In this document: positions 12,621 through 27,940 of the stretch, in pieces | Numbering within the stretch: position 1 is the stretch's first letter | Layout: each line of letters opens with the position of its first letter | DNA from: Jiangella alba | GTDB lineage: Bacteria; Actinomycetota; Actinomycetes; Jiangellales; Jiangellaceae | Length of the DNA stretch: 64,000 bases | NCBI RefSeq assembly: GCF_900106035.1 | Contig: NZ_FNUC01000004.1 | Span: forward strand, 1,054,001 to 1,118,000 | Direction: 5' to 3' | Program-made: the position numbers and the translations under genes | Notes under the pieces: generated by a model | Told to the model about the DNA's origin: nothing | Database searches by the model: none | The model's input: only the letters and a program-made list of their open reading frames with translations

Positions 12621-12711
12621 GGAGGCGTCGCCTAGCCCGGTTTATGGCGCCCGCCTGCTAAGCGGGTTGAGGGCTCAAACCCTCTCGCGGGTTCAAATCC
12701 CGCCGCCTCCG
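12621..12711 (+). tRNA. tRNA-Ser(GCT), integration site of the mobile element
   Basis: A 91-nt class II tRNA. Acceptor GGAGGCG pairs with CGCCTCC, anticodon stem CCCGC pairs with GCGGG around loop CTGCTAA, giving anticodon GCT at 12657-12659; the T arm is CGGGTTCAAATCCCG. The 3' part from 12653 on is the left copy of the attachment repeat, so integration kept the tRNA intact with 3' sequence supplied by the element. Confidence 0.97.
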
Positions 12712-12722
12712 CCCCACCAGCA
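12653..12722 (+). repeat. attL: left 70-bp copy of the attachment repeat
   Basis: The segment covers the tRNA-Ser 3' half from the anticodon arm to 11 bases past the tRNA. It is identical over 70 bases to 27871-27940; the bases just outside (C at 12652 against A at 27870, A at 12723 against C at 27941) differ, which fixes the ends. Confidence 0.96.
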
Positions 12723-12770: not shown

Positions 12771-12794
12771 GTCTCAGTTTTCGTCTCAGTTGTC
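12771..12794. other. Left arm-type integrase site (tandem 12-mers)
   Basis: Two tandem 12-mers, GTCTCAGTTTTC and GTCTCAGTTGTC, lie 49 bp inside the left core repeat and directly beyond the int stop codon. The same tandem pair recurs at the right end of the element (27759-27782). Repeats of this kind are the arm sites bound by the N-terminal domain of tyrosine integrases; the role is inferred from position. Confidence 0.7.
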
Positions 12795-14010
12795 ATTCGT
12801 CCGGCCTCCACAGCAGCCCGTCGACCTGCTCAGCAACAGCGCGCCGGATCGAGTCGACGACATGCTGATAGCGAGCGGCCATAGCTGTCGTCGACCATCC
12901 CATGATGGACATGACGGTGCGCTCGGGCACGCCGAGGATCAACAGAGCGGTGGCGGCAGTGTGACGTGCGTCATGCAGCCGACCGTCACGGACACCCGCG
13001 GCCTTCAGCAGCCGCTTCCACTCGTGATAGTCCGTCGACGGCACCAACGCCCGGCCGTCCGGCTTCGCGAACACCCGATCCTCGTCGTGCCAGGCGTCGC
13101 CGGCCTCGCGACGTTCCCGGTCCTGCTGGCGGCGGTGGTCTTCAAGAAGCTTCATCAGCTCAGCCGGAACACCGACCTCTCGACGGCCGGCGCGGGACTT
13201 GGTCTCCTTCGTCTCCGGGTTGACGCGCTTGCGGTTCGGGCAGTCGCCGGCCCTCTTCTTCCCGCACGATCCGCTGCACCCGTGCGCGTATCGCGGCCGA
13301 AGGGCACTTCGCCGAACCCGCAGGGTCCCGGTCTTCAGGTCGACGTGTGACCACTTCAGGCCTAGCGCTTCGCCCTGACGAAGACCCAGCGCGAGCGCGA
13401 TCGCCCACCGCGTACCGTTCCGGCGCTCCATGGCCAGCTTCAGCAGTCGTCGAGTCTCCTCGACCTCGTACGGTTCGACCTCGGGTTCTTCCAGCGATGG
13501 AGCCTTCGCCAGACTCGCCGGGTTCGCTGTCAGGTACCCGCGCTTCAAGGCCACGTTCAGGGCCAGTCGGATCGTCCGGTGCACGTGGTGAGCCGTGCCG
13601 GGCTTGCGGCCCTTCTCGACCTGGATCTTGAGGTAGAGCTTCTCCAGGTGTTCCGGTGCGAGGCGTTCGAGCCGGTGCTTCCCGATGCCGGGGATCAGAT
13701 GGACCTTCACGTCAGTCAGGTAGCCCGCGTGTGTGTTGTGGCCAATGGTCGGCGGAACGGCGATGTTCTCGATCCAGTGCGTGAGCCACTTCTCGACGGT
13801 CCATCGCTGGCCGGCCTTACGAACCTTGCCGGTGTCGCGGTCGCGTTCGAGCTTGCGGACCGCGGCGATGACCTCGGCTTCGGTCTTGCGTTGCACGTGG
13901 CGGCGGTCCGGCGAGCCGTCGTCTTTGATGCCGACGGTGACGCGGCCGTGCCAGTCGCCGTCCTTCCCGAGGTAGATGCTCGATGCGCCGTTGGGTCTGC
14001 GGGTGGCCAT
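12793..14010 (-). CDS. int: Tyrosine site-specific integrase of the AICE
   Basis: A 405-aa tyrosine recombinase that would integrate and excise the element at tRNA-Ser. An N-terminal arm-binding domain (about 10-60), a core-binding SAM-like domain (about 68-165) and a catalytic domain follow in order. Catalytic residues visible are Arg211 in GLRQGE, His346/Arg349 in HDARH, Trp372 in GWS and nucleophile Tyr381 in ARYQHV. A cysteine-rich insertion (Cys245, Cys249, Cys257) may bind zinc, as in some actinobacterial integrases. Its ATG at 14010 shares one base with the xis stop. The gene ends next to the left arm sites. Confidence 0.95.
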   Translation of the reverse strand: MATRRPNGASSIYLGKDGDWHGRVTVGIKDDGSPDRRHVQRKTEAEVIAAVRKLERDRDTGKVRKAGQRWTVEKWLTHWIENIAVPPTIGHNTHAGYLTDVKVHLIPGIGKHRLERLAPEHLEKLYLKIQVEKGRKPGTAHHVHRTIRLALNVALKRGYLTANPASLAKAPSLEEPEVEPYEVEETRRLLKLAMERRNGTRWAIALALGLRQGEALGLKWSHVDLKTGTLRVRRSALRPRYAHGCSGSCGKKRAGDCPNRKRVNPETKETKSRAGRREVGVPAELMKLLEDHRRQQDRERREAGDAWHDEDRVFAKPDGRALVPSTDYHEWKRLLKAAGVRDGRLHDARHTAATALLILGVPERTVMSIMGWSTTAMAARYQHVVDSIRRAVAEQVDGLLWRPDE

Positions 14011-14240
14011 CACGCGACCTGTCCCGCGGCTTCGGCACGGCTCAGCTGGTCGGCGACGTACTCGCGCAGGCACTCCAGCGGCACGCGCCGCAGGTAGCCG
14101 ATCTTGATGGAGCGGATGTCTCCGCCCATGACCAGGGCGTACATGGTGGTCCGTCCGATGCGGAGATAGCGTGCGGCTTCCTCGATGGTCAGGACGTCAC
14201 CGGCTGATCGCAGTTCGATCAGCGTCTCGTCGTCGTTCAT
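14010..14240 (-). CDS. xis: Excisionase / MerR-like helix-turn-helix protein
   Basis: A 76-aa DNA-binding protein with the HTH_17/excisionase pattern DVLTIEEAARYLRIGRTTMY followed by the wing IKIGYLRRVPLECLREYV. Its position immediately before int, overlapping it by one base, is standard for AICE excisionases, which bend attachment-site DNA to direct excision. AAGGAA about nine bases before ATG 14240 supports that start rather than the upstream in-frame ATG at 14258. Confidence 0.9.
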   Translation of the reverse strand: MNDDETLIELRSAGDVLTIEEAARYLRIGRTTMYALVMGGDIRSIKIGYLRRVPLECLREYVADQLSRAEAAGQVA

Positions 14241-14259: not shown

Positions 14260-15807
14260 TCACGCCGCCGGGGCAGCGGCAGGCCTTGCAGTTGCCGAAA
14301 CACCGAGCGCCTGGGGTCCGGCGCGCGTCTTGGCGTCCTCGTACTGGGTTCGCCAGCGGTGTTTCTGCGCGATGGCGTGGGCGATGAGCCGGGCGTAGGT
14401 CGGTGCGTCGAGGTCGCCGGGCTTGGTGGTGGTCCACACGTAGCGGGGCAGGCCGTCGGGCCGAGCGGCGGTTACCGAAAGCTCGTCGTGGTCGTCCATC
14501 TCGATCCCGGCTTCGGCCAGGACGGCGCGGACGACGGAGGCACGGTCCGCGCGGTGGTCGTCGAGGGTCTTCCCGGTCCACCGCCGGGACACGAGGACGC
14601 GGCGGCCGCCGAGGCCGAGGTGGTCCCGGTCGTGCGCCTTGGACCCGCAGCGGCCCGGCTCCATCCCGCCCTTCGCGTCCTTGGGTTGGACGCCGTAGCG
14701 CAGCCAGTTTGCGCACGTCGGCGAGCACGGAAGCCACCGGACTTCGCCTGCGATCCGGTCAATGTGCGCGCGCCTCGCCGCCGACACGGGTGCCTCGCCG
14801 TCGCTGTCGTCGTGGAGCGGGTCAGTGATCGACTTGGTCAGGTACTTGGTGAGGTAGCCGATGACCCGGTCCGCGAGCGGTGTCCCGGCGATGACGCCCT
14901 GGATGTCGACCTGGGTCCCGGCCCGGATGACGTGTGCCGGCGTCGCGTCGGGGTCGTCGTCGATGGCGTCCAGCGCCTCATCCCACGACGGCAAGACCGC
15001 GCCCGTCGTCGGGTCGGCGTAGGCCTGGGCCAGTTCGTCCCACACCGGAAGCTCGTCCGGGCCGGTGTAGACGGGTTCGCCGACGCTGGGCCACCACACC
15101 TGGTGGTACGTCGCCGCCACCACCTGCTTGACCAGCTTGCGCGGGACGGCTCCGCGGATCGCGGCGTGCAAGTGCGGGGCGAGACGGCGTTGGGGTTCGA
15201 CGGTGGCGAAGTACTGCACCGAGTAGCCGGTAGCGCGGCGCAGGTTCTGCCAGAACCGGTCCACCAGCTTCGGGAAGTGCATCGCATCCAGCGCCGCCCG
15301 CCGGTAGTCATACGAGGCCGGGTCGACCGGCACACCCTCACCCGTGACGCGCCCGTACGACGGCAAGGTGAGCGTCACGAACATCGACGGCCGATACGTC
15401 TTCCCATCCGGCGAGGTGAACACCCGCCCAGTCGTCCGGTCCGACACCGCCAACCGCGGCAGGTCCGGCGCGTCCTGACGCCGCCGAGTCGACCGCACCC
15501 GACGCCCGGACTCGTCATCCTCGTCGGCCTGGTCGACGGCGTCGCCCTCTGCGCCGTCAGGGTCGGGTTCGGGCTTGGGTGGGTCCTCGGTGAGGTGCCA
15601 GCCCTCGCGGCACTGCTGAATCCGCAACCGACGAGCCGCGTCCGCACAAGACGGGCACACTTTGGCGCGGGTGGCCCCGCACCGGATCACCACCGTCCGC
15701 GATGCGCCGGTGAGGGTATCGGTGACGTGTTGCAGGATCGGCCGCACGCACACCCGCTCAGAAGCTGCGAGCTCGCGCATGGTCGCGTCGCTTGGCAGGG
15801 CCGTCAT
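14260..15807 (-). CDS. Replication initiator protein, RepSA-like HUH endonuclease
   Basis: A 515-aa initiator of rolling-circle replication for the excised element. Cys pairs CPSC at 51-54 may bind zinc. Motif 1 FVTLTLPS is at 143-150, the metal-binding HUH motif is PHLHAAI (His212, His214) and the catalytic tyrosines lie in GYLTKYLTK (Tyr318, Tyr322). The order and length match the RepSA/pSAM2-type initiators of AICEs. Its ATG overlaps the stop of the translocase gene by four bases, so the two are translationally coupled. All catalytic residues are present. Confidence 0.93.
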   Translation of the reverse strand: MTALPSDATMRELAASERVCVRPILQHVTDTLTGASRTVVIRCGATRAKVCPSCADAARRLRIQQCREGWHLTEDPPKPEPDPDGAEGDAVDQADEDDESGRRVRSTRRRQDAPDLPRLAVSDRTTGRVFTSPDGKTYRPSMFVTLTLPSYGRVTGEGVPVDPASYDYRRAALDAMHFPKLVDRFWQNLRRATGYSVQYFATVEPQRRLAPHLHAAIRGAVPRKLVKQVVAATYHQVWWPSVGEPVYTGPDELPVWDELAQAYADPTTGAVLPSWDEALDAIDDDPDATPAHVIRAGTQVDIQGVIAGTPLADRVIGYLTKYLTKSITDPLHDDSDGEAPVSAARRAHIDRIAGEVRWLPCSPTCANWLRYGVQPKDAKGGMEPGRCGSKAHDRDHLGLGGRRVLVSRRWTGKTLDDHRADRASVVRAVLAEAGIEMDDHDELSVTAARPDGLPRYVWTTTKPGDLDAPTYARLIAHAIAQKHRWRTQYEDAKTRAGPQALGVSATARPAAAPAA

Positions 15808-17216
15808 GCCGATGCCTCCTCGTCCGCGGGCGCCTTGTCGGCGGGCGTGGGGCTGGTGAGGTCGGTCAGGTCGCGGCGGAGGTCTGCGGTGCGGGTGGCG
15901 ATCTGTTCGGCGGTGTGCTCGTCGATGTAGGGAAAGCGGACGCGTTCGAGCTGTCCGCCGGCGTCGGCGACCACGGCGACACCGGGCATGCCGGCGGGTA
16001 TGTCGACCGGCGACACGGCCGAGCCGCGGACGACCGGGCCGAGGATCGCTTCTGCGGCGTCGTCGGACAGCACCCGCCAGGCCGTGCGCACGGAGGCGTT
16101 GTCGCGGATCGCGGTCGGGATCGCATCCGAGGTGGGCTTCTGGGTCAACAGGCGGGTGATGATGCCGGCGGAGCGGCCCTTCTTCACCAGCGCCGACAAC
16201 CGCGCCGTGATCGTGGCCGCTACGGTCTTGGTGTCCTTGTCCATGCCCTTGGCGTCGGTGAACGTCTGCACCTCGTCCACGACCAGGAACACGACCGGGT
16301 GGGCTGGGTCGAGCGGGAGGTTCCAGAAGTTCGCCTGTCCCCGCTGGGTCTTCTGCGTCTTCAGCCGGGCGCGCATCAGCTGGTGCACGGACTCGACCAG
16401 GTCGAGCACGACGTTCAGGTCTTCGTCCTCGTTCGTGTAGGCAGCCGCGCGCGGGGTGTTCCAGGACCAGTCCTCGCCGCCTTTGCCGTCGATGACGACG
16501 TATTGCACGGCCGGGTTCTGGATCAGCCCGCACGCCAACGAGGTCTCACCTGCGGTCTTCCCACTGCCGGGGACTCCACCGCCGACCTCGGCAGCGATGT
16601 TCGCGTAGTCACGGGTCCGCCATGCCCCGTCCTCGCCGACGGCGAACCGCACCGCGCGGAGGTCCGTCACCGGGTCGACGTCGTCCAACACGACACCGTC
16701 AGCGAGCACGTCACGCTCGACCAATGTCAGGTCGACCAGGCCGGGACCGGTCGAGGTGACCCGGACGGCCGGGGCATTGAGGGCGTGGGCGAGTTCCGCG
16801 GCTTGGCACTCGAAGTCGCCGGGCTCCTGCCCGGTGAGCAGCCGCACGTGCAGGACGTCGCCGACCGGACTCTCAGTCACCTGCACGAGCCGGGGTGTCG
16901 CGAACTCGCCGGGGCGACCCGGGAGCGGGCGGTGCAGGCCGCACGACTGCATCACCTCGACCCAGCGCAGCCCGTAGACGGTGCGGAGGCGGTGCCGGGC
17001 GACCAGCCAGCCGACGAACCGCCAGTACGACCAGGGGTGCACCCACCGCCACGCGAGCGCCAGCAGCGGCGGACACACCACCAGGACCAGCAGGCCGGCC
17101 CAGCCGTAGGCAGCGAAGACGAACACGACGAGCGCTGCGGCGGCCAGGGCGCGCTTGAAGCGCCACGCCAGCTGGAGCAGCCAGACACCCGTCACGACTT
17201 TGAGGAGCCACATCAT
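15804..17216 (-). CDS. FtsK/SpoIIIE-type conjugal DNA translocase (TraSA-like)
   Basis: A 470-aa ATPase that moves the element between mycelia as double-stranded DNA. Two or three N-terminal membrane helices span about residues 5-60; the motor has Walker A GGGVPGSGKT at 212-221 and Walker B VVFLVVDEVQ at 308-317, and SAGIITRLLTQKPTSDAIP is the sensor-like segment. The start at ATG 17216 has GGAGG eight bases upstream; GTG 17225 would sit inside that ribosome site. The ATG overlaps the stop of the preceding small gene. No separate mating-pore genes are present, as in AICEs. Confidence 0.93.
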   Translation of the reverse strand: MMWLLKVVTGVWLLQLAWRFKRALAAAALVVFVFAAYGWAGLLVLVVCPPLLALAWRWVHPWSYWRFVGWLVARHRLRTVYGLRWVEVMQSCGLHRPLPGRPGEFATPRLVQVTESPVGDVLHVRLLTGQEPGDFECQAAELAHALNAPAVRVTSTGPGLVDLTLVERDVLADGVVLDDVDPVTDLRAVRFAVGEDGAWRTRDYANIAAEVGGGVPGSGKTAGETSLACGLIQNPAVQYVVIDGKGGEDWSWNTPRAAAYTNEDEDLNVVLDLVESVHQLMRARLKTQKTQRGQANFWNLPLDPAHPVVFLVVDEVQTFTDAKGMDKDTKTVAATITARLSALVKKGRSAGIITRLLTQKPTSDAIPTAIRDNASVRTAWRVLSDDAAEAILGPVVRGSAVSPVDIPAGMPGVAVVADAGGQLERVRFPYIDEHTAEQIATRTADLRRDLTDLTSPTPADKAPADEEASA

Positions 17217-17446
17217 GACGCCCACCTCCCAGCCGGGCTCGGGACGCCCCGTTCAGGCGTCGTCGCGTTCGTTCGATGCATCGAGGTCGCCTCAGAGGTG
17301 CGCGAAGTCGTCAGCGCCACGTGGCGGGCGTGCGCGGCGGCGTGGCAGCCAGGACACAACCGTTCACCGGTAGCCGGGTAGAACCACGCCTGCGCCACGG
17401 TCACGAGGCGCGGGCAGCGCGAGCAGTCCACGAGAGCCGTGATCAC
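17213..17446 (-). CDS. Small double-CxxC protein in the transfer operon
   Basis: A 77-aa protein with CSRC near residue 8 and CPGC near residue 32, a probable zinc ribbon, then a basic, Thr-rich tail. GTG 17446 overlaps the stop of the upstream gene by four bases and its own TGA overlaps the translocase ATG by four bases, so three genes are linked by coupled translation. That linkage is the main evidence for coding. Function unknown. Confidence 0.72.
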   Translation of the reverse strand: MITALVDCSRCPRLVTVAQAWFYPATGERLCPGCHAAAHARHVALTTSRTSEATSMHRTNATTPERGVPSPAGRWAS

Positions 17447-19052: not shown

Positions 19053-19820
19053 ATGGCCACCGGCTACCGCGAGCTGGCAGACATGCTCCGAGCGGCGATC
19101 TTGCAGGGTGACTATCCCGAGGGCTCGACGCTGCCCAAGCAGGACGAGCTAGCCGCCGAGCACGACGTCAACGTGAAGACGGTCCGTAACGCCGTCTCAC
19201 TTCTGGCTGCGGAAGGACTGGTGACGCCTGTCCGCCGGCGCGGCACCGTCGTTCGCATCCGGCCTCCGATGCAGCGCCTCGGCGCGGAGCGGTACGCCAA
19301 GAGCAAGTGGAAGTTCGGCAACCTCGTCGCCTTCGCTGCCGACCGTGAGGCGTCGGGCCGGCCGTGGAAATGGACCGATCAGACACAGACGGTCCGGCAG
19401 GTCCCTGCCGACCAGGAGACTGCAACCGCCCTGTCCGTGCCGGTCGGGTCGACGGTCTACGAGCGCGCAAGGCTCGTGAAGGACGACGGGACGCCCACCC
19501 ACACTCTCGCCAGCTACTACCGGCCCGAGGACGTCGAGGGAACGCCCATCGTCGACCCGACGCCCGGACCCGCCGGCCGAGGCGGTGGATTCGCCGTCCT
19601 GACATTGCAGGGCCTGGAGCCGCACGAGATCGCCGAGACCTTCTACGCTCGCATGCCCACGCCGGACGAACGCGAGACGCTGGAGCTGCCGGCCGGCGAG
19701 CCGGTCATGATCCTTCAACGCCACACCACCACCGAGAGTGGCAAGGTGGTCGAGTTCGCACGCGGCGTGCACTCGGCGTCGCGGTTCTCCTGGAGCTACA
19801 CGTTCAAGATCCCCGACTAA
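19053..19820 (+). CDS. GntR-family repressor with UTRA domain (KorSA-like)
   Basis: A 255-aa regulator. The winged helix-turn-helix (residues 1-70, YRELADMLRAAILQGDYPEGSTLP...VNVKTVRNAVSLLAAEGLV) is followed by a UTRA effector domain (about 85-250) with YERARLVKDDGTPTHTLASYY. In pSAM2 the equivalent KorSA represses transfer and replication genes to keep the element integrated. ATG 19053 has GGAGG nearby. Three operators lie in its upstream region, and it probably also represses itself. Confidence 0.93.
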   Translation: MATGYRELADMLRAAILQGDYPEGSTLPKQDELAAEHDVNVKTVRNAVSLLAAEGLVTPVRRRGTVVRIRPPMQRLGAERYAKSKWKFGNLVAFAADREASGRPWKWTDQTQTVRQVPADQETATALSVPVGSTVYERARLVKDDGTPTHTLASYYRPEDVEGTPIVDPTPGPAGRGGGFAVLTLQGLEPHEIAETFYARMPTPDERETLELPAGEPVMILQRHTTTESGKVVEFARGVHSASRFSWSYTFKIPD

Positions 19821-19837
19821 GTGGGTAACTGACGACG

Positions 19838-20503
19838 ATGAGCGCTGACCGACCTGGACTGCCCGACCACGTCCTGGCGGACGCGCAAATCCTCTGGGAC
19901 TACCACCAGCTGCACCACGAGCTGCGCCCCACCGACGTCGGCATCGGCCTCGGCAGCCACGACCCCGGAGTGCCCGACCACACCGCCGACCTCTACCACC
20001 GCGGCATGTTCCCGCTCATCGTGTTCACCGGCGCCAACGCCCCCACCACTATCGACCTGTACCCCGACGGCGAAGCCGTCCACTACGCCCGACGAGCCGT
20101 CGAACTCGGCGTCCCGGCCGACGCGATCCTGATCGAGCCACGAGCCACGAACACCGCCGAGAACTTAATCTTCACTCGCCAGCTACTCGCCGAGCACGGC
20201 ATCACGCCACAGGCGGTCACGCTCATCACCCGGCCCTACCAACAGCGCCGCGCCTACGCCACCTGCCGCAAGCAATGGCCCGACGTCGACGTCATCTGCT
20301 CATCCCAACCGCAGACCTTCCGCAACTACCTCGACACCATCAACGACGACGACCGCGTCATCAACATGCTCGTCGGCGACACCCAACGCATCACCCTCTA
20401 CGCCGAACGCGCCTACGCCCTTCCGCAGCCCATACCCGCATCGATCCAGCGCGCGTACGAGCACTTAATTCGCCTAGGATTCGACTCCCGCTTAGTGACC
20501 TAG
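19838..20503 (+). CDS. YdcF/ElyC-like (DUF218) protein
   Basis: A 221-aa cytosolic protein with the DUF218 layout: VGIGLGSHDPGVPDHTADLYHRG, LIVFTGAN, ILIEPRATNTAENLIFTRQLL and TLITRPYQQRRAYAT. Family members bind nucleotide-like ligands; the molecular role is unsettled. There is no membrane anchor here. It follows the regulator by 17 bases in the same direction, so it is probably part of the regulator transcript. YdcF-like genes are frequent companions of KorSA-like regulators in AICEs. Confidence 0.87.
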   Translation: MSADRPGLPDHVLADAQILWDYHQLHHELRPTDVGIGLGSHDPGVPDHTADLYHRGMFPLIVFTGANAPTTIDLYPDGEAVHYARRAVELGVPADAILIEPRATNTAENLIFTRQLLAEHGITPQAVTLITRPYQQRRAYATCRKQWPDVDVICSSQPQTFRNYLDTINDDDRVINMLVGDTQRITLYAERAYALPQPIPASIQRAYEHLIRLGFDSRLVT

Positions 20504-20530
20504 TTACATGCGCCGCAGAGCCTATTCGGC

Positions 20531-22021
20531 CTACCAGTGATCAAGGTCAAACGGATCAGAGTCCGCATCTACAAATTCCATAAACCGCGTAACCAACCGG
20601 CGCCCCACAACGGCGGTCGCTTGCGTGAAGGCAAGGGCGGCGGCCTCGGCGCTAGCGAGCTCCAAGGGGTACGGCCCATCTTCAGCAATCGTCCCCGGGA
20701 TCAACTCCCGGACCCGAATCGCCTGCTCTCCACGACCATAGATCACAGGCAGTCTCACGAAAGAAACTCGATCGCCATCAGCAATAAGATAGATTCCGAG
20801 ATAGACATGCGAGTCTAGGTGTGATCCAGGCGCACTCCGCCAAGCTATCGCCACAAGAGCGGGCGAATTAGCCGCCAGACTGAACGGCTCAACCTTCCGA
20901 TCTTGCAAGAAGTCGACGTCACCCGAGTCGATTAGTTGCGACATTGGGGACCCAGCGCTAGAAACGTCGATACCAAGCTCACCGCCACTTGCCTCGCTGA
21001 GGCGCATCAAATCGCCGTGCAGGAGCTCATCTAGACTGCGGTGCATCATGGTTCCGATATCATCGACGCGCGCCCGCAGTCTCCTCGTTCGATCCGCTTC
21101 GGCACGGCGAGCATCTGCGCTGCGGCGCTCAGCTAAGCGTGAGGCCACGGCCAAAGCCTCGGCAAGGTCCTGTCGATCCTGATGCGCTGGCAGTTCCGAG
21201 GCCCCAGAAAGCATTTTGGAAATAGTATCCAGCTCATGCAGAACGACGGACCAATCGGCGAGCCGGGCGCGAGGATCGGTATCTAACAGCTGCGCGAATA
21301 GCTCATTCAAACCCACTAACAGCGGCACTCCAGTCACGCTCTCGATCCGATATCGCCGTTCAATCTGCGCCTCACGAGCCGGTGGATTCGTGGCCGCGAG
21401 AATCGCCCAGGCGAACTTCGCCCATGCATAGAAGTCAGCAGGTCGCTGATCAATCCCATCGGCGATTCCCGATTCGTTCTCGGGTGCTATGTAAAGCCGT
21501 GAACCAATCGCCTCGGCGGGCGCTGTTAACCGAACGCTCTCCTCGATTTTCAGGCAAAGCCCAAAGTCCGCCAAGAGCGGCTTGCGACCGTCAAGCAGAA
21601 TATTCGATGGCTTTACGTCACGATGCGCGTAGCCTCGCTCGTGCAAGGCACGAAGGGCCGCGGCCACATCGCGGACGAGGTCGATGCCATCTTTTACACC
21701 TAGCGCTTCGGCTTCCGGCCCGACGAATTTCTGCAACGAGCCCTCCGTGTACCACGGCATCACAAACCACGGCCGCTCGATCGCCAGGTCTTGATCGACT
21801 ATGGGCGGCACAGGCAAGGCGTGATCCGCGAGCCTAGCCATCGTCTCGACTTCGCGTCTGAAGCGCTCGCGCCGGGCGGGGTTCTTGAGGCGCTTCAGCG
21901 CGTAGCTACGTCCGGCTTCCCCACGCCTTGAGACCTCATAGACCCACGCCTGGCCAGACTCGTTCAGCGCACCTCCGGCGACTCTCGGCCAGTGCTTTGG
22001 CAGCCCCATGGAAACCCCCAT
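20531..22021 (-). CDS. Cytosolic Ser/Thr protein kinase, second gene of a two-gene cargo unit
   Basis: A 496-aa eukaryotic-type kinase. The ATP lysine is Lys43 in YALKRLKN, catalytic loop YAHRDVKPSNILL has Asp135, DFG lies at 152-154, and YIAPEN replaces APE; the glycine loop is degenerate (NESGQAWVYEV). All catalytic residues needed are present. Unlike PknB types there is no membrane helix or PASTA repeat; residues about 280-330 are charged and coiled-coil-like, and 340-496 form an unknown mixed domain. GAGGA from the upstream gene end serves ATG 22021, three bases after that stop. Codon use and GC are lower than in the backbone. Confidence 0.88.
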   Translation of the reverse strand: MGVSMGLPKHWPRVAGGALNESGQAWVYEVSRRGEAGRSYALKRLKNPARRERFRREVETMARLADHALPVPPIVDQDLAIERPWFVMPWYTEGSLQKFVGPEAEALGVKDGIDLVRDVAAALRALHERGYAHRDVKPSNILLDGRKPLLADFGLCLKIEESVRLTAPAEAIGSRLYIAPENESGIADGIDQRPADFYAWAKFAWAILAATNPPAREAQIERRYRIESVTGVPLLVGLNELFAQLLDTDPRARLADWSVVLHELDTISKMLSGASELPAHQDRQDLAEALAVASRLAERRSADARRAEADRTRRLRARVDDIGTMMHRSLDELLHGDLMRLSEASGGELGIDVSSAGSPMSQLIDSGDVDFLQDRKVEPFSLAANSPALVAIAWRSAPGSHLDSHVYLGIYLIADGDRVSFVRLPVIYGRGEQAIRVRELIPGTIAEDGPYPLELASAEAAALAFTQATAVVGRRLVTRFMEFVDADSDPFDLDHW

Positions 22022-22024
22022 GTG

Positions 22025-22837
22025 TTAGTCCTCTAGTGCGGTCATCTCTCGCACCGAGTAGAATCCCTTCGCGGGATCGAATATAGGTAAGCTGTTCCTC
22101 TCTCCTTGCTGCAAGGGTCGGCCAGCGAAGTGCGGAGTTGATACGCCATTGCAACTCCACATCAACTGGAAAAGCTGTGTATTCAAGTGTTTATATACTT
22201 TCCCAATCTGAGGGACCCCGCCGATACCTGGGTAGCGCTCATCCCCTGTGATCTCGCACAGGATCTCGAATGGCTCCATGTCGATATTATTGCCATCGCG
22301 ATCACGCTCTCGCAGTAGCACCCTTGTTCGCCTAATGGCGTCCACGACCGCTTGCTTATTATCTCCGGAGAAGAAGAATTTCGATTCGTTGGCGCCCAGC
22401 AGTCGGCGGAAGATGAAGCGTCGATTCCCCGCGTCGAACGCCAGCCTCCACGCCTTGAATTTATCGTCTTGCCAATCATAACCCCCGAGCAAGAAGTAGT
22501 TGTCTGGCTTATCTGGGTGGCGCTGACCCACTGGCAAGGAGTGGATGGCGTCATAGGTTTGTTGAAAAACACGCAACGTGTGACCCTTTAACTTGGAAAG
22601 CGGAAGGCGGCGACTGGAGCTAAACGGGTAGTTCTCAATAGCCCTCTGCATCTGCATCAAGAGTGGGTACGCCCATTGAGTGTCACCGGCGAACGCTATC
22701 AATGCATCCGATCGGCCAAGTTGAAAGACCTTCTGTGCGTGATCCAATGCCTGACCACCACTCAATCGACTGTCGGAGGCAATCACCAGCTCGTAATGCG
22801 AGAGTACGCGTCGCAGAAAGACGGTTAGCAGTGTCAC
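22025..22837 (-). CDS. Proteasome-beta/Ntn-hydrolase-like protein, first gene of the kinase unit
   Basis: A 270-aa protein I read as an Ntn-hydrolase candidate. After the initiator (GTG 22837, AAGGAG six bases upstream) residue 2 is Thr, which Met aminopeptidase would expose. VIASDSRLSGG (Asp22) and KVFQLGRSDALIAFAGD (Lys36, Gly51) match the Asp17, Lys33 and Gly47 landmarks of proteasome beta subunits at nearly the right spacing. The C-terminal half (from about 150) is unfamiliar and longer than HslV. The kinase gene follows at once. Peptidase activity is inference; the domain could be inactive and sensory. Confidence 0.62.
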   Translation of the reverse strand: MTLLTVFLRRVLSHYELVIASDSRLSGGQALDHAQKVFQLGRSDALIAFAGDTQWAYPLLMQMQRAIENYPFSSSRRLPLSKLKGHTLRVFQQTYDAIHSLPVGQRHPDKPDNYFLLGGYDWQDDKFKAWRLAFDAGNRRFIFRRLLGANESKFFFSGDNKQAVVDAIRRTRVLLRERDRDGNNIDMEPFEILCEITGDERYPGIGGVPQIGKVYKHLNTQLFQLMWSCNGVSTPHFAGRPLQQGERNSLPIFDPAKGFYSVREMTALED

Positions 22838-23470
22838 AGATGGCTCCTTGAGTTATGCACCCCTCAGACCGCGTAATCTAGCGCAAATACACCGCCAACG
22901 GCTCATCTAGGAATGAACGGTCCCACGGATGCTTCAGGTCCACGTTGGTGCGCGCGTCCGTCCGGGATCGTCCAGCCCTGCTGAGGCGCTGCCGGCGTCA
23001 CCCACCAACGTTCCGCCGCAAGCATTGGTCCCCGGTCCGTGGCATCGCATTCATCGCCCGATACCAGAGTCACTGACGCCATTGCCATGCCTTGCCACGA
23101 AGTCCGCGCCGTGCATTGCCGGACTGAGCTATTGAGGATCAAGCGGCGCGCTACGCGCGCCGTGCCCTCCGGCCGCCGGGCCGGGCATGCGGCCTGGCGG
23201 CCGTTCCGGGCCCCGGCGGCCGGCAGGCACCCGACGTGATCCGCTCGGCCACTCCTGCACCATTGCCGCGGCGGCGTCGTCCTCTTAGCAGCCATTCTTT
23301 TGGCCTCCGCTTCACACGTCAAGGGCGCCTGCGGCGTCACGACGTGATCGCTACGCGACCCTTGACACGCTCCGCTCCAGCCAACGACCTGGCAGCTATG
23401 AGGACGACGCCTCAGGGTGAGCAACGTGCTCGCAGTCGCAGTCCTTGCCGACCAAGCCTGAATCAGTTGA
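22838..23470. other. 633-bp stretch without a convincing gene, with nested inverted repeats
   Basis: It must hold the promoter of the Ntn/kinase unit near its left end. Open frames here lack family features and a ribosome site. I see an 8-bp stem CGGCGCGC-3-GCGCGCCG at 23144-23162 and an outer stem GTCAAGGG/CCCTTGAC (23318-23325, 23359-23366) with the inner dyad TCACGACGTGA at 23337-23347. It may be the remains of a gene or a structured cis site. Confidence 0.5.
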
Positions 23471-24106: not shown

Positions 24107-25210
24107 TCAGGCTCTGCGTCTTGCCTGATTGAAGTCCACGACATTCGATGGAAGCCTTCTTGGGGCTGGCGACTCGAATGGAAGCTCTTCTGAAGTTGCA
24201 TGCTGCGAGAGCACCGCAGTCGCGAGCTCATATGACCATCCAGCAGCCGCTGAGAATGTCTCAATTTGCAACGCGGGGCCATATGCGATCTCCATTAGTT
24301 TACGCAATGACCTTGGCTTTTCGCGCGGCACGTGACCTGGTTCTGCGCGGTTCCAACCACGCGCACTGATTTGGCGATAGAGCCCCGTCGCTCGTTCCTG
24401 ATCAATCACTCCGAGCTCTCGCGCGCGTCGCACCAGACTTTTAATCGAGACGCCCCACCTGGTCTTAAGCATCGCAAGCCCACTCAGCGTCAGTCGCTTC
24501 GGCATCTCACCTGCGAGCGCGTGAAGAGGCGTTAACAATTCAGCTGCGAATAGATCTGCTTCCGCCTCAATGTCTCTTCCCGCCGCCCGGTCCTTGTGCA
24601 ACAGCAAATGTCCAAGTTCGTGGGCCACGCTAAAACGGAGGCGGTCACCAGGGACACCGTCCAAGAGCCCGATTAGGGGTTCCTTCTCGTACCAGGCGCA
24701 GAAAGCATCGAGTGAATTCTCGGCGAGCGGCAAGCCTAGGATCGTAACCCCGGTTCGTTCGATTGCAAGAACAAGATAAGGAAGTGGTTGATTAGGCGTG
24801 AATCCCATTATCTCCCGCATCGCGCGCGCAGCTTCCTGTGGAGACAGTCCGTACGCTGACTCTAGGCGTACCGGAATTGCGCTTCCGTGTGCGCGCATGC
24901 GCTTATGTTCCTCATGAATGAGCCGTGCCCATTGGAGCGCCGAAGCCTTCGACCGTTGGGTGAGTCGGCTACGGGATCTAAGTTGCGGCGAGTGACCTGC
25001 TAATTCAGGCGTTGGGTCGCGAGTAAAGAAATCAACGGTGACGCCCAGCGTTGCCGCCAGGAGTGCAGTTGTCTCGCCGTCAGGCTGGCTTAGGCCCTTT
25101 TCAATCCTCGAAAGCTGCGACTGCGTCAGGTCGGGCATCCTGTCGACGAGCCCAAGTTGTGTTAGGCCGTGCATCTCGCGCAACTGCCTAACTCGCTCGC
25201 CGAAGATCAC
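24107..25210 (-). CDS. XRE-family HTH fused to ImmA/IrrE metallopeptidase
   Basis: A 367-aa two-domain regulator. Residues about 3-62 form an XRE helix-turn-helix (ERVRQLREMHGLTQLGLVDR...LTQSQLSRIEKGLSQPD). The ImmA/IrrE peptidase domain carries zinc motif HELGH at 197-201 and EAEADLFAAELLTP, where a glutamate completes the site. Such proteins sense stress and cleave repressors or act as antitoxins/regulators of neighbouring genes. The GTG at 25210 starts two bases after the stop of the 223-aa gene, with GAGGG as ribosome site, so they form one operon. Confidence 0.92.
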   Translation of the reverse strand: MIFGERVRQLREMHGLTQLGLVDRMPDLTQSQLSRIEKGLSQPDGETTALLAATLGVTVDFFTRDPTPELAGHSPQLRSRSRLTQRSKASALQWARLIHEEHKRMRAHGSAIPVRLESAYGLSPQEAARAMREIMGFTPNQPLPYLVLAIERTGVTILGLPLAENSLDAFCAWYEKEPLIGLLDGVPGDRLRFSVAHELGHLLLHKDRAAGRDIEAEADLFAAELLTPLHALAGEMPKRLTLSGLAMLKTRWGVSIKSLVRRARELGVIDQERATGLYRQISARGWNRAEPGHVPREKPRSLRKLMEIAYGPALQIETFSAAAGWSYELATAVLSQHATSEELPFESPAPRRLPSNVVDFNQARRRA

Positions 25211-25904: not shown

Positions 25905-26246
25905 TCAGCGCACGGTGATGCTGTGGCCCGGGAAGTCAGCGACGATGCGGATGCGGCCGCCGAGGGCTGCGACGTAGCGGCTGATGGTGTCGACCTCGGT
26001 GCGGGTGAGATCGCCGCGTTCGATCTCGCTGACGCGCTTCTGGCTGACGCCCATGTCGCGAGCGACGTCGGTCTGGGTGCGGTGCTGCTCGCGCCGGATC
26101 TCCGCCAGGCGGTACGCGGCCTCTTCCGCCTCCAGTTCGGCACGGGCCTGAGCAACGGCGGCCTCGTCGAGGTTCAGCTTCGCGCGGGTCTCCGCCCACG
26201 TCGGCCAGCGCGCAGTATCGGTCGTGGTCTCGATCTCCTGAGTCAT
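25905..26246 (-). CDS. HigA-like antitoxin (XRE HTH)
   Basis: A 113-aa protein. An N-terminal helical region (WAETRAKLNLDEAAVAQARAELEAEEAAYRLAEIR) is followed by an XRE helix-turn-helix (RTQTDVARDMGVSQKRVSEIERGDLTRTEVDTISRYVAALGG) and a short basic tail. It lies ten bases after the RelE/HigB-like gene in the same operon. The toxin-first order is that of higBA, and the HTH would neutralise the toxin and repress the promoter. Confidence 0.88.
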   Translation of the reverse strand: MTQEIETTTDTARWPTWAETRAKLNLDEAAVAQARAELEAEEAAYRLAEIRREQHRTQTDVARDMGVSQKRVSEIERGDLTRTEVDTISRYVAALGGRIRIVADFPGHSITVR

Positions 26247-26256
26247 CTCTCGCCCC

Positions 26257-26607
26257 CTATGCCTTGCCCTCGTCGAGCATGGTCAGCCACTCGTCGTATC
26301 GGTCGTCTGCGAGCGGGATGGACGCCTTGTACCAGCGTTCCCACTCACCTCGCTTGTCGCCAGCCACCAGGAGGATGGCGGCGCGCCGTGGATCGAACAC
26401 GAACAAGATCCGTACCGTGCGCGCACGCAGCTCCTTCATGTTGTGGTGCCGGCTGCCCTTGATGCTGTCCACCGTCGGCCTACCCAGCGCCGGCCCGTCC
26501 TCAGCCAGGCGGTCAAGAGCTGCGGCGACAGTCACCGCGGTCGTTCCAGTCAGGCCCTCCAACCATCTGGCGACGTCAGGGTGTTCGTGAATCACCCAGG
26601 CATCCAT
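26257..26607 (-). CDS. RelE/HigB-like toxin (phage-derived Gp49-like)
   Basis: A 116-aa protein with the RelE/HigB pattern: VARWLEGLTGTTAVTVAAALDRLAEDGPALGRPTVDSIKGSRHHNMKELRA then RTVRILFVFDPRRAAILLVAGDKRGEWERWYKASIPLADDRYDEWL. The conserved KELR and FDPRRAAILLVAGDK segments match the Gp49/HigB family, whose members cut ribosome-bound mRNA. ATG 26607 has GAGG eight bases upstream; an in-frame TTG precedes it. Antitoxin gene follows. Confidence 0.9.
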   Translation of the reverse strand: MDAWVIHEHPDVARWLEGLTGTTAVTVAAALDRLAEDGPALGRPTVDSIKGSRHHNMKELRARTVRILFVFDPRRAAILLVAGDKRGEWERWYKASIPLADDRYDEWLTMLDEGKA

Positions 26608-26695
26608 CAATATACCTCACAACTTCTAGTAGGCAGGCGGTATGTCCCGTCAGCTCACGGTCATCGCCAAGCCACCCTTCCGATGGACCGCTCAC

Positions 26696-27870: not shown

Positions 27871-27940
27871 GCCTGCTAAGCGGGTTGAGGGCTCAAACCC
27901 TCTCGCGGGTTCAAATCCCGCCGCCTCCGCCCCACCAGCA
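27871..27940 (+). repeat. attR: right 70-bp copy of the attachment repeat
   Basis: This segment repeats the tRNA-Ser 3' half without its 5' half and so is not a tRNA gene. It is the original chromosomal 3' end displaced by integration. All 70 bases equal those at 12653-12722. Confidence 0.96.

Follow-up and report, generated by a model that had tools for sequence, protein, structure and literature searches.

A mobile two-gene cassette encoding a proteasome-like protein and a Ser/Thr kinase in an AICE of Jiangella alba, with a candidate role in defence

What might a proteasome-like protein do when its gene lies directly ahead of that of a Ser/Thr kinase, in the cargo of a mobile element? The question was raised by a locus of Jiangella alba (contig NZ_FNUC01000004.1), which we analysed within a stretch of 64,000 nucleotides, here called the window. 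Both open reading frames were found on the minus strand at the coordinates of the original prediction, separated by an intergenic gap of 3 bases, and the first of them begins, as had been predicted, with GTG-ACA (Met-Thr), behind an AAGGAG element. The features of the operon are as follows.

22025..22837, minus strand: proteasome-like (Ntn-hydrolase) protein of 270 aa with a GTG start; Thr2 is the predicted nucleophile (ORF, profiles, model)
20531..22021, minus strand: Ser/Thr protein kinase, 496 aa, with the kinase domain at about residues 15–275 and a C-terminal part at about 300–496 (ORF, PF00069)
22838..22852, minus strand: ribosome-binding site of the 270-aa gene, AAGGAG 6 nt ahead of GTG (sequence reading)

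The ATG of the kinase gene is preceded by AGAGGA, sited within the last codons of the 270-aa gene. Because the ribosome-binding site of the kinase gene lies inside the end of the first gene, the two genes are, as read from the sequence, probably translationally coupled.

The 270-aa protein matched Pfam Proteasome (PF00227) with 18.6 bits (E 0.0015), below the cut-off of 22.4, and the HslV models with 12.8 and 11.9 bits (E about 0.1) against cut-offs of 137 and 157.75. The residues that had been predicted to resemble proteasome Asp17, Lys33 and Gly47 correspond to Asp22, Lys36 and Gly51, which were invariant in all 23 aligned family members, and Thr2 was present in 22 of the 22 members with an intact N-terminus; the N-terminus of the Synechococcus copy L025, the reading frame of which is broken there, is missing from the alignment. 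An AlphaFold2 model obtained with 17 sequences reached a pLDDT of 86 and a pTM of 0.87, and when it was used in Foldseek and VIA-align all matches listed were proteasome or Anbu chains (VIA-align Z 19.2, rmsd 3.0, approximately 195–199 residues to Anbu 5nyg and the M. jannaschii beta subunit 3h4p). In this model, residue 2 superposes on chain residue 1 of Anbu 5nyw and of the T. acidophilum beta subunit 1pma. Comparison of the family profile with the HslV profile aligned residues 10–78 (E 3e-7) and matched the Asp, Lys and Gly of the two families, and the family profile also detected HslV in many proteobacterial genomes. Conservation, predicted fold and profile similarity to HslV together exclude a chance resemblance, and the fold search upheld the earlier reading as an Ntn hydrolase of proteasome-beta type; judging from the model, the protein almost certainly has a proteasome-type Ntn fold of four alpha-beta-beta-alpha layers. 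Removal of the Met would leave Thr2 as the predicted nucleophile, with Asp22 and Lys36 as putative catalytic partners and Gly51 in the putative oxyanion hole, and the modelled protein is quite likely to be catalytically active.

Two closer assignments were rejected. HslV identity was set aside on scores below the curated cut-offs and on the adjoining gene, which encodes a kinase and not HslU. PrcB (20S beta) identity was set aside on the score below the PF00227 cut-off and the lack of an alpha partner, and the PF00227 pair of the same genome (PrcA/PrcB-type) sits on another contig, C3.

Relatives of the 270-aa protein span at least seven phyla. Scanning genome contigs with the window protein as the sole query gave no match, and the alignment of relatives as query gave homologues in genomes of Comamonas, Synechococcus, Desulfatitalea, Rhizobium, Marinobacter, Fodinibius, an acidobacterium and others; homologues were also present in one genome elsewhere in the phylum and on plasmids, some of them close to rep genes. 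No match was obtained by tblastn of phage records with two family members or by a PHROGs search with the window protein. Members from different phyla are 65–71 % identical, which points to horizontal transfer of the family. Copies disrupted by stop codons, frameshifts or an inserted IS element occur in E. coli, Klebsiella (L006), Rhizobium and Synechococcus (L025), most family copies being intact; since several copies are broken, the family gene is dispensable, and the cross-phylum identities and the broken copies are together consistent with accessory, horizontally moving cargo. The gene is present in 126 of the 5426 complete E. coli genomes; every carrier shares at least 99 % identity with a copy that has an internal stop, and among the 30 matches listed all were fully identical to that copy. 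The stop in the E. coli copy (L011:8001-8813) leaves a 191-aa protein that retains the catalytic residues. A prophage of Paracoccus indicus carries a proteasome-like gene (L012:5001-5840) between its head–tail and tail genes, a typical site for moron genes. A sister proteasome-like family, found by a weak profile match in an actinobacterium (L036:1501-2304) and a rhodobacterium (L052:1117-1932), has proteins that start with MTSIVAW and MTTIAAQ and carry the motif SRITWG.

Fuchs, Alva and Lupas (2021) described 22 new subfamilies of proteasome homologues, all prokaryotic or phage, the genomic contexts of which were uninformative and for which no function was found (PMC8665760). The 270-aa protein probably belongs to one of these, and the PMI-type is, by its distribution, the nearest candidate.

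The surroundings of the two genes agreed with the prediction of low-G+C cargo of an AICE. The host element is a genuine AICE of 15.2 kb, bounded by identical 70-bp repeats at tRNA-Ser(GCT), in which an integrase, tRNA att repeats, a RepSA/Prim-Pol initiator and a KorSA-type regulator were found, together with a TraSA recognized by motif reading only. The G+C content is 55–61 % in the low-G+C cargo part, compared with 70–75 % across most of the window outside the AICE. The parts of the element are listed below.

12653..12722, plus strand: att direct repeat, 3' part of tRNA-Ser(GCT) (direct-repeat comparison)
12793..14073, minus strand: tyrosine integrase of the AICE (PF00589)
14260..15795, minus strand: pSAM2-type RepSA replication initiator, start approximate (PF20199, 2e-96)
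15804..17225, minus strand: putative FtsK/TraSA-type transfer ATPase (P-loop-like motif by reading; no Pfam match)
19053..19820, plus strand: KorSA-type GntR/UTRA repressor, left flank of the cargo slot (Pfam)
19838..20503, plus strand: DUF218 protein, final conserved backbone gene ahead of the cargo slot (Pfam)
20413..23150, no strand assigned: two-gene cassette of hydrolase and kinase (comparison with congeners G400, G404 and G405)
27871..27940, plus strand: att direct repeat at the opposite AICE end, the same 70 bp as 12653..12722

Directly past the cargo slot lies an XRE-ImmA/IrrE metalloprotease regulator (24107–25210), and one has the same position in the G404 element (L097:13425-14585). 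In the same AICE, an HTH gene (25905–26246) adjoins a small gene (26257–26610) that reads as a HigB/Gp49-type toxin, and the two (25905–26610) form a probable toxin–antitoxin pair.

The congeners G404 and G405 possess the same AICE backbone without the cassette: similarity to the window stops at 20409 in G404 and 20422 in G405, and resumes near 23282 and 23117, respectively. Against G400, the DNA identity of the cassette was 97.7 % for the kinase gene and 98.5 % for the hydrolase gene (dS 0.05–0.06), while the AICE genes around it were 86–90 % identical (dS 0.26–0.50); in a sliding comparison, the cassette was approximately 2 % divergent and its flanks showed roughly 4–41 differences per 100 bp. 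The left edge, at approximately 20413, agrees with the end of similarity in G404 and G405 (20409–20422), and the right edge falls at approximately 23150 by the G400 comparison, between about 23117 and 23282. A block of about 98 % identity within an element of 86–90 % identity indicates that both genes moved together, and recently. At the level of DNA comparison, these results establish that the two genes are one cassette, which recently entered, or passed between, elements that share one backbone.

The G404 element has in this slot an ATPase gene and the gene of an MmeI-type IIG restriction–modification enzyme, a protein of about 950 aa that scores 1121 bits in PADLOC. That this slot exchanges cargo such as the MmeI enzyme is the best evidence for reading the pair as a defence cassette, and it strengthens the suggestion of phage defence put forward in the original prediction, which is plausible. 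Family relatives adjoin Gabija (L007, L009), Leo dynamin-like (L004), AbiTii and GmrSD-type genes, a purely descriptive observation from neighbour-family tables (Pfam, PADLOC) that cover the 25 commonest families over the family loci. By association, the cassette is probably defence cargo. Counting against this reading, the slot of G405 (L098:6927-10296) holds two divergently oriented genes of 529 and 569 aa without a Pfam or PADLOC match. These two are another candidate defence cargo, and beyond the slot the G405 element carries a KAP NTPase matching PifA.

The second gene encodes a kinase that matched PF00069 with 71.8 bits (E 8e-20), above the cut-off of 31.7. Its catalytic core is intact (K43, H133-R134-D135 and D152-F153-G154), and its highest 19-residue hydropathy mean was 1.35, so that a membrane helix is not indicated, in line with the complete, cytosolic kinase core that had been predicted. 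The PADLOC PD-T4-6 and Mko profiles, which match many kinases, outscored Pfam Pkinase on this protein (97 versus 72 bits). The PD-T4-6 match covers the kinase domain up to residue 330 and leaves the C-terminal part unmatched. Neither plasmids nor 394 genomes of the class yielded a relative of the C-terminal 196 residues, and exact peptide patterns found no whole-kinase relatives in viral contigs. With too few homologues available, the structure predicted from two sequences was unusable (pLDDT 35).

The original prediction had further implied that the linkage of the two genes would recur in other genomes. In this respect it did not hold: phmmer found no kinase among the neighbouring ORFs of 25 other family loci, with short flanks in L013, L015, L017, L025 and L035, and the pair was found only in the window element and G400. 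All-against-all BLAST of the neighbours of the 25 loci revealed no common non-kinase partner beyond a few defence-like genes. Since no kinase lies beside 25 other members, the hydrolase can do without this kinase in other settings. By the criterion set with the original prediction, the lack of recurrent linkage would weaken the pair, but the block of about 98 % identity indicates that the genes travel together in this lineage. The kinase may well act with the hydrolase. Taken together, the observations and the structural inference of the prediction stood, while its implied conserved kinase linkage did not.

Our main reading, to which we assign a probability of roughly 0.45, is that the AICE cassette defends the cell that carries it, or the element itself, against phages or competing elements; the threonine hydrolase would be the effector, and the kinase would sense or regulate. 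The hydrolase would cleave, or ligate like connectase, specific proteins on infection; as the family gene has no conserved AAA+ neighbour, a dedicated unfoldase is probably not involved. Conjecturally, the kinase would be a sensor or switch that phosphorylates the hydrolase or its substrates via its orphan C-terminal part, and gating of the hydrolase by the kinase is likewise a conjecture. A tentative proposal, which we regard as somewhat unlikely, is a two-component immune system: during phage infection, a kinase bearing an orphan sensor domain would activate a proteasome-type threonine hydrolase, either protease or ligase. If true, this proteasome-like subfamily would gain its first function, and a kinase–proteasome immune unit would be new in bacteria; as the original prediction had supposed, no proteasome-like/kinase defence pair was found among the open-access papers searched.

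Two independent cargo genes would be the nearest alternative, namely a proteasome-like defence protein and a kinase (e.g. PD-T4-6-like, acting by abortive infection) that each work on their own and share operon and slot by chance. That the hydrolase stands alone in 25 other loci with no common partner, that the kinase resembles single-gene defence kinases and that defence genes frequently stack in a single slot would all fit, but the 3-nt spacing, the overlap of the kinase ribosome-binding site with the first gene and the intact block in G400 with low dS in both genes argue for a unit, and we consider independence doubtful. A proteasome fold could also belong to a pseudoenzyme, or to an Ntn enzyme other than a protease, such as an amidase or a connectase-like protein ligase. 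Connectase, a proteasome homologue and monomeric ligase (PMC8665760), sets the precedent; in the family, the third long helix opens with G158-D159 in place of the GSG of HslV, and Asp166 and Ser169 are not clearly kept in the alignment. This reading is unlikely, and the full conservation of Thr2, Asp, Lys and Gly speaks against a pseudoenzyme, an argument that does not touch the ligase option. In a third explanation, the hydrolase would degrade an AICE or host regulator under control of the kinase and so tune excision, transfer or immunity. The cargo adjoins the KorSA-type and DUF218 backbone genes, and relatives have been found close to rep genes of plasmids as well as inside a prophage; however, G404 and G405 keep the same backbone without the cassette, which is thus not needed for maintenance, and G404 uses the slot for a restriction enzyme, making such a maintenance role improbable. 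A toxin–antitoxin-like or self-poisoning pair, with the hydrolase toxic and the kinase restraining it or the reverse, would suit the tight operon and the several disrupted family copies, but it is very improbable for a family that normally lacks a partner and has mostly intact copies.

Under the protective reading of the cassette, a proteasome branch without a function gains a directly testable candidate role in defence: a proteasome-type protein forms one exchangeable package with a kinase, in a slot where a sister element carries a restriction enzyme.

Among known systems, the subfamilies of PMC8665760 share with the 270-aa protein the proteasome beta core, the catalytic Thr, Asp, Lys and Gly, the lack of a propeptide and a broad bacterial, partly phage, distribution, whereas PMI-4 has longer insertions and the main text mentions neither a kinase neighbour nor an AICE slot. 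HslV (ClpQ) aligns over residues 10–78, where its Asp, Lys and Gly fall at matching positions, but it has about 175 aa against 270 in the window protein, which lacks an HslU partner. Anbu and archaeal 20S beta subunits are the best structural matches, although identity is 10–15 % and the 270-aa protein is not paired with alpha subunits. The MmeI type IIG enzyme of G404 occupies the same cargo slot in the same element, but it is an unrelated protein, a slot-mate rather than a homologue. Finally, PD-T4-6 and other single-gene defence Ser/Thr kinases share the cytosolic Ser/Thr kinase domain and gave the best PADLOC scores, whereas the window kinase has a C-terminal part that PD-T4-6-type kinases do not match and stands in an operon with a proteasome-like gene.
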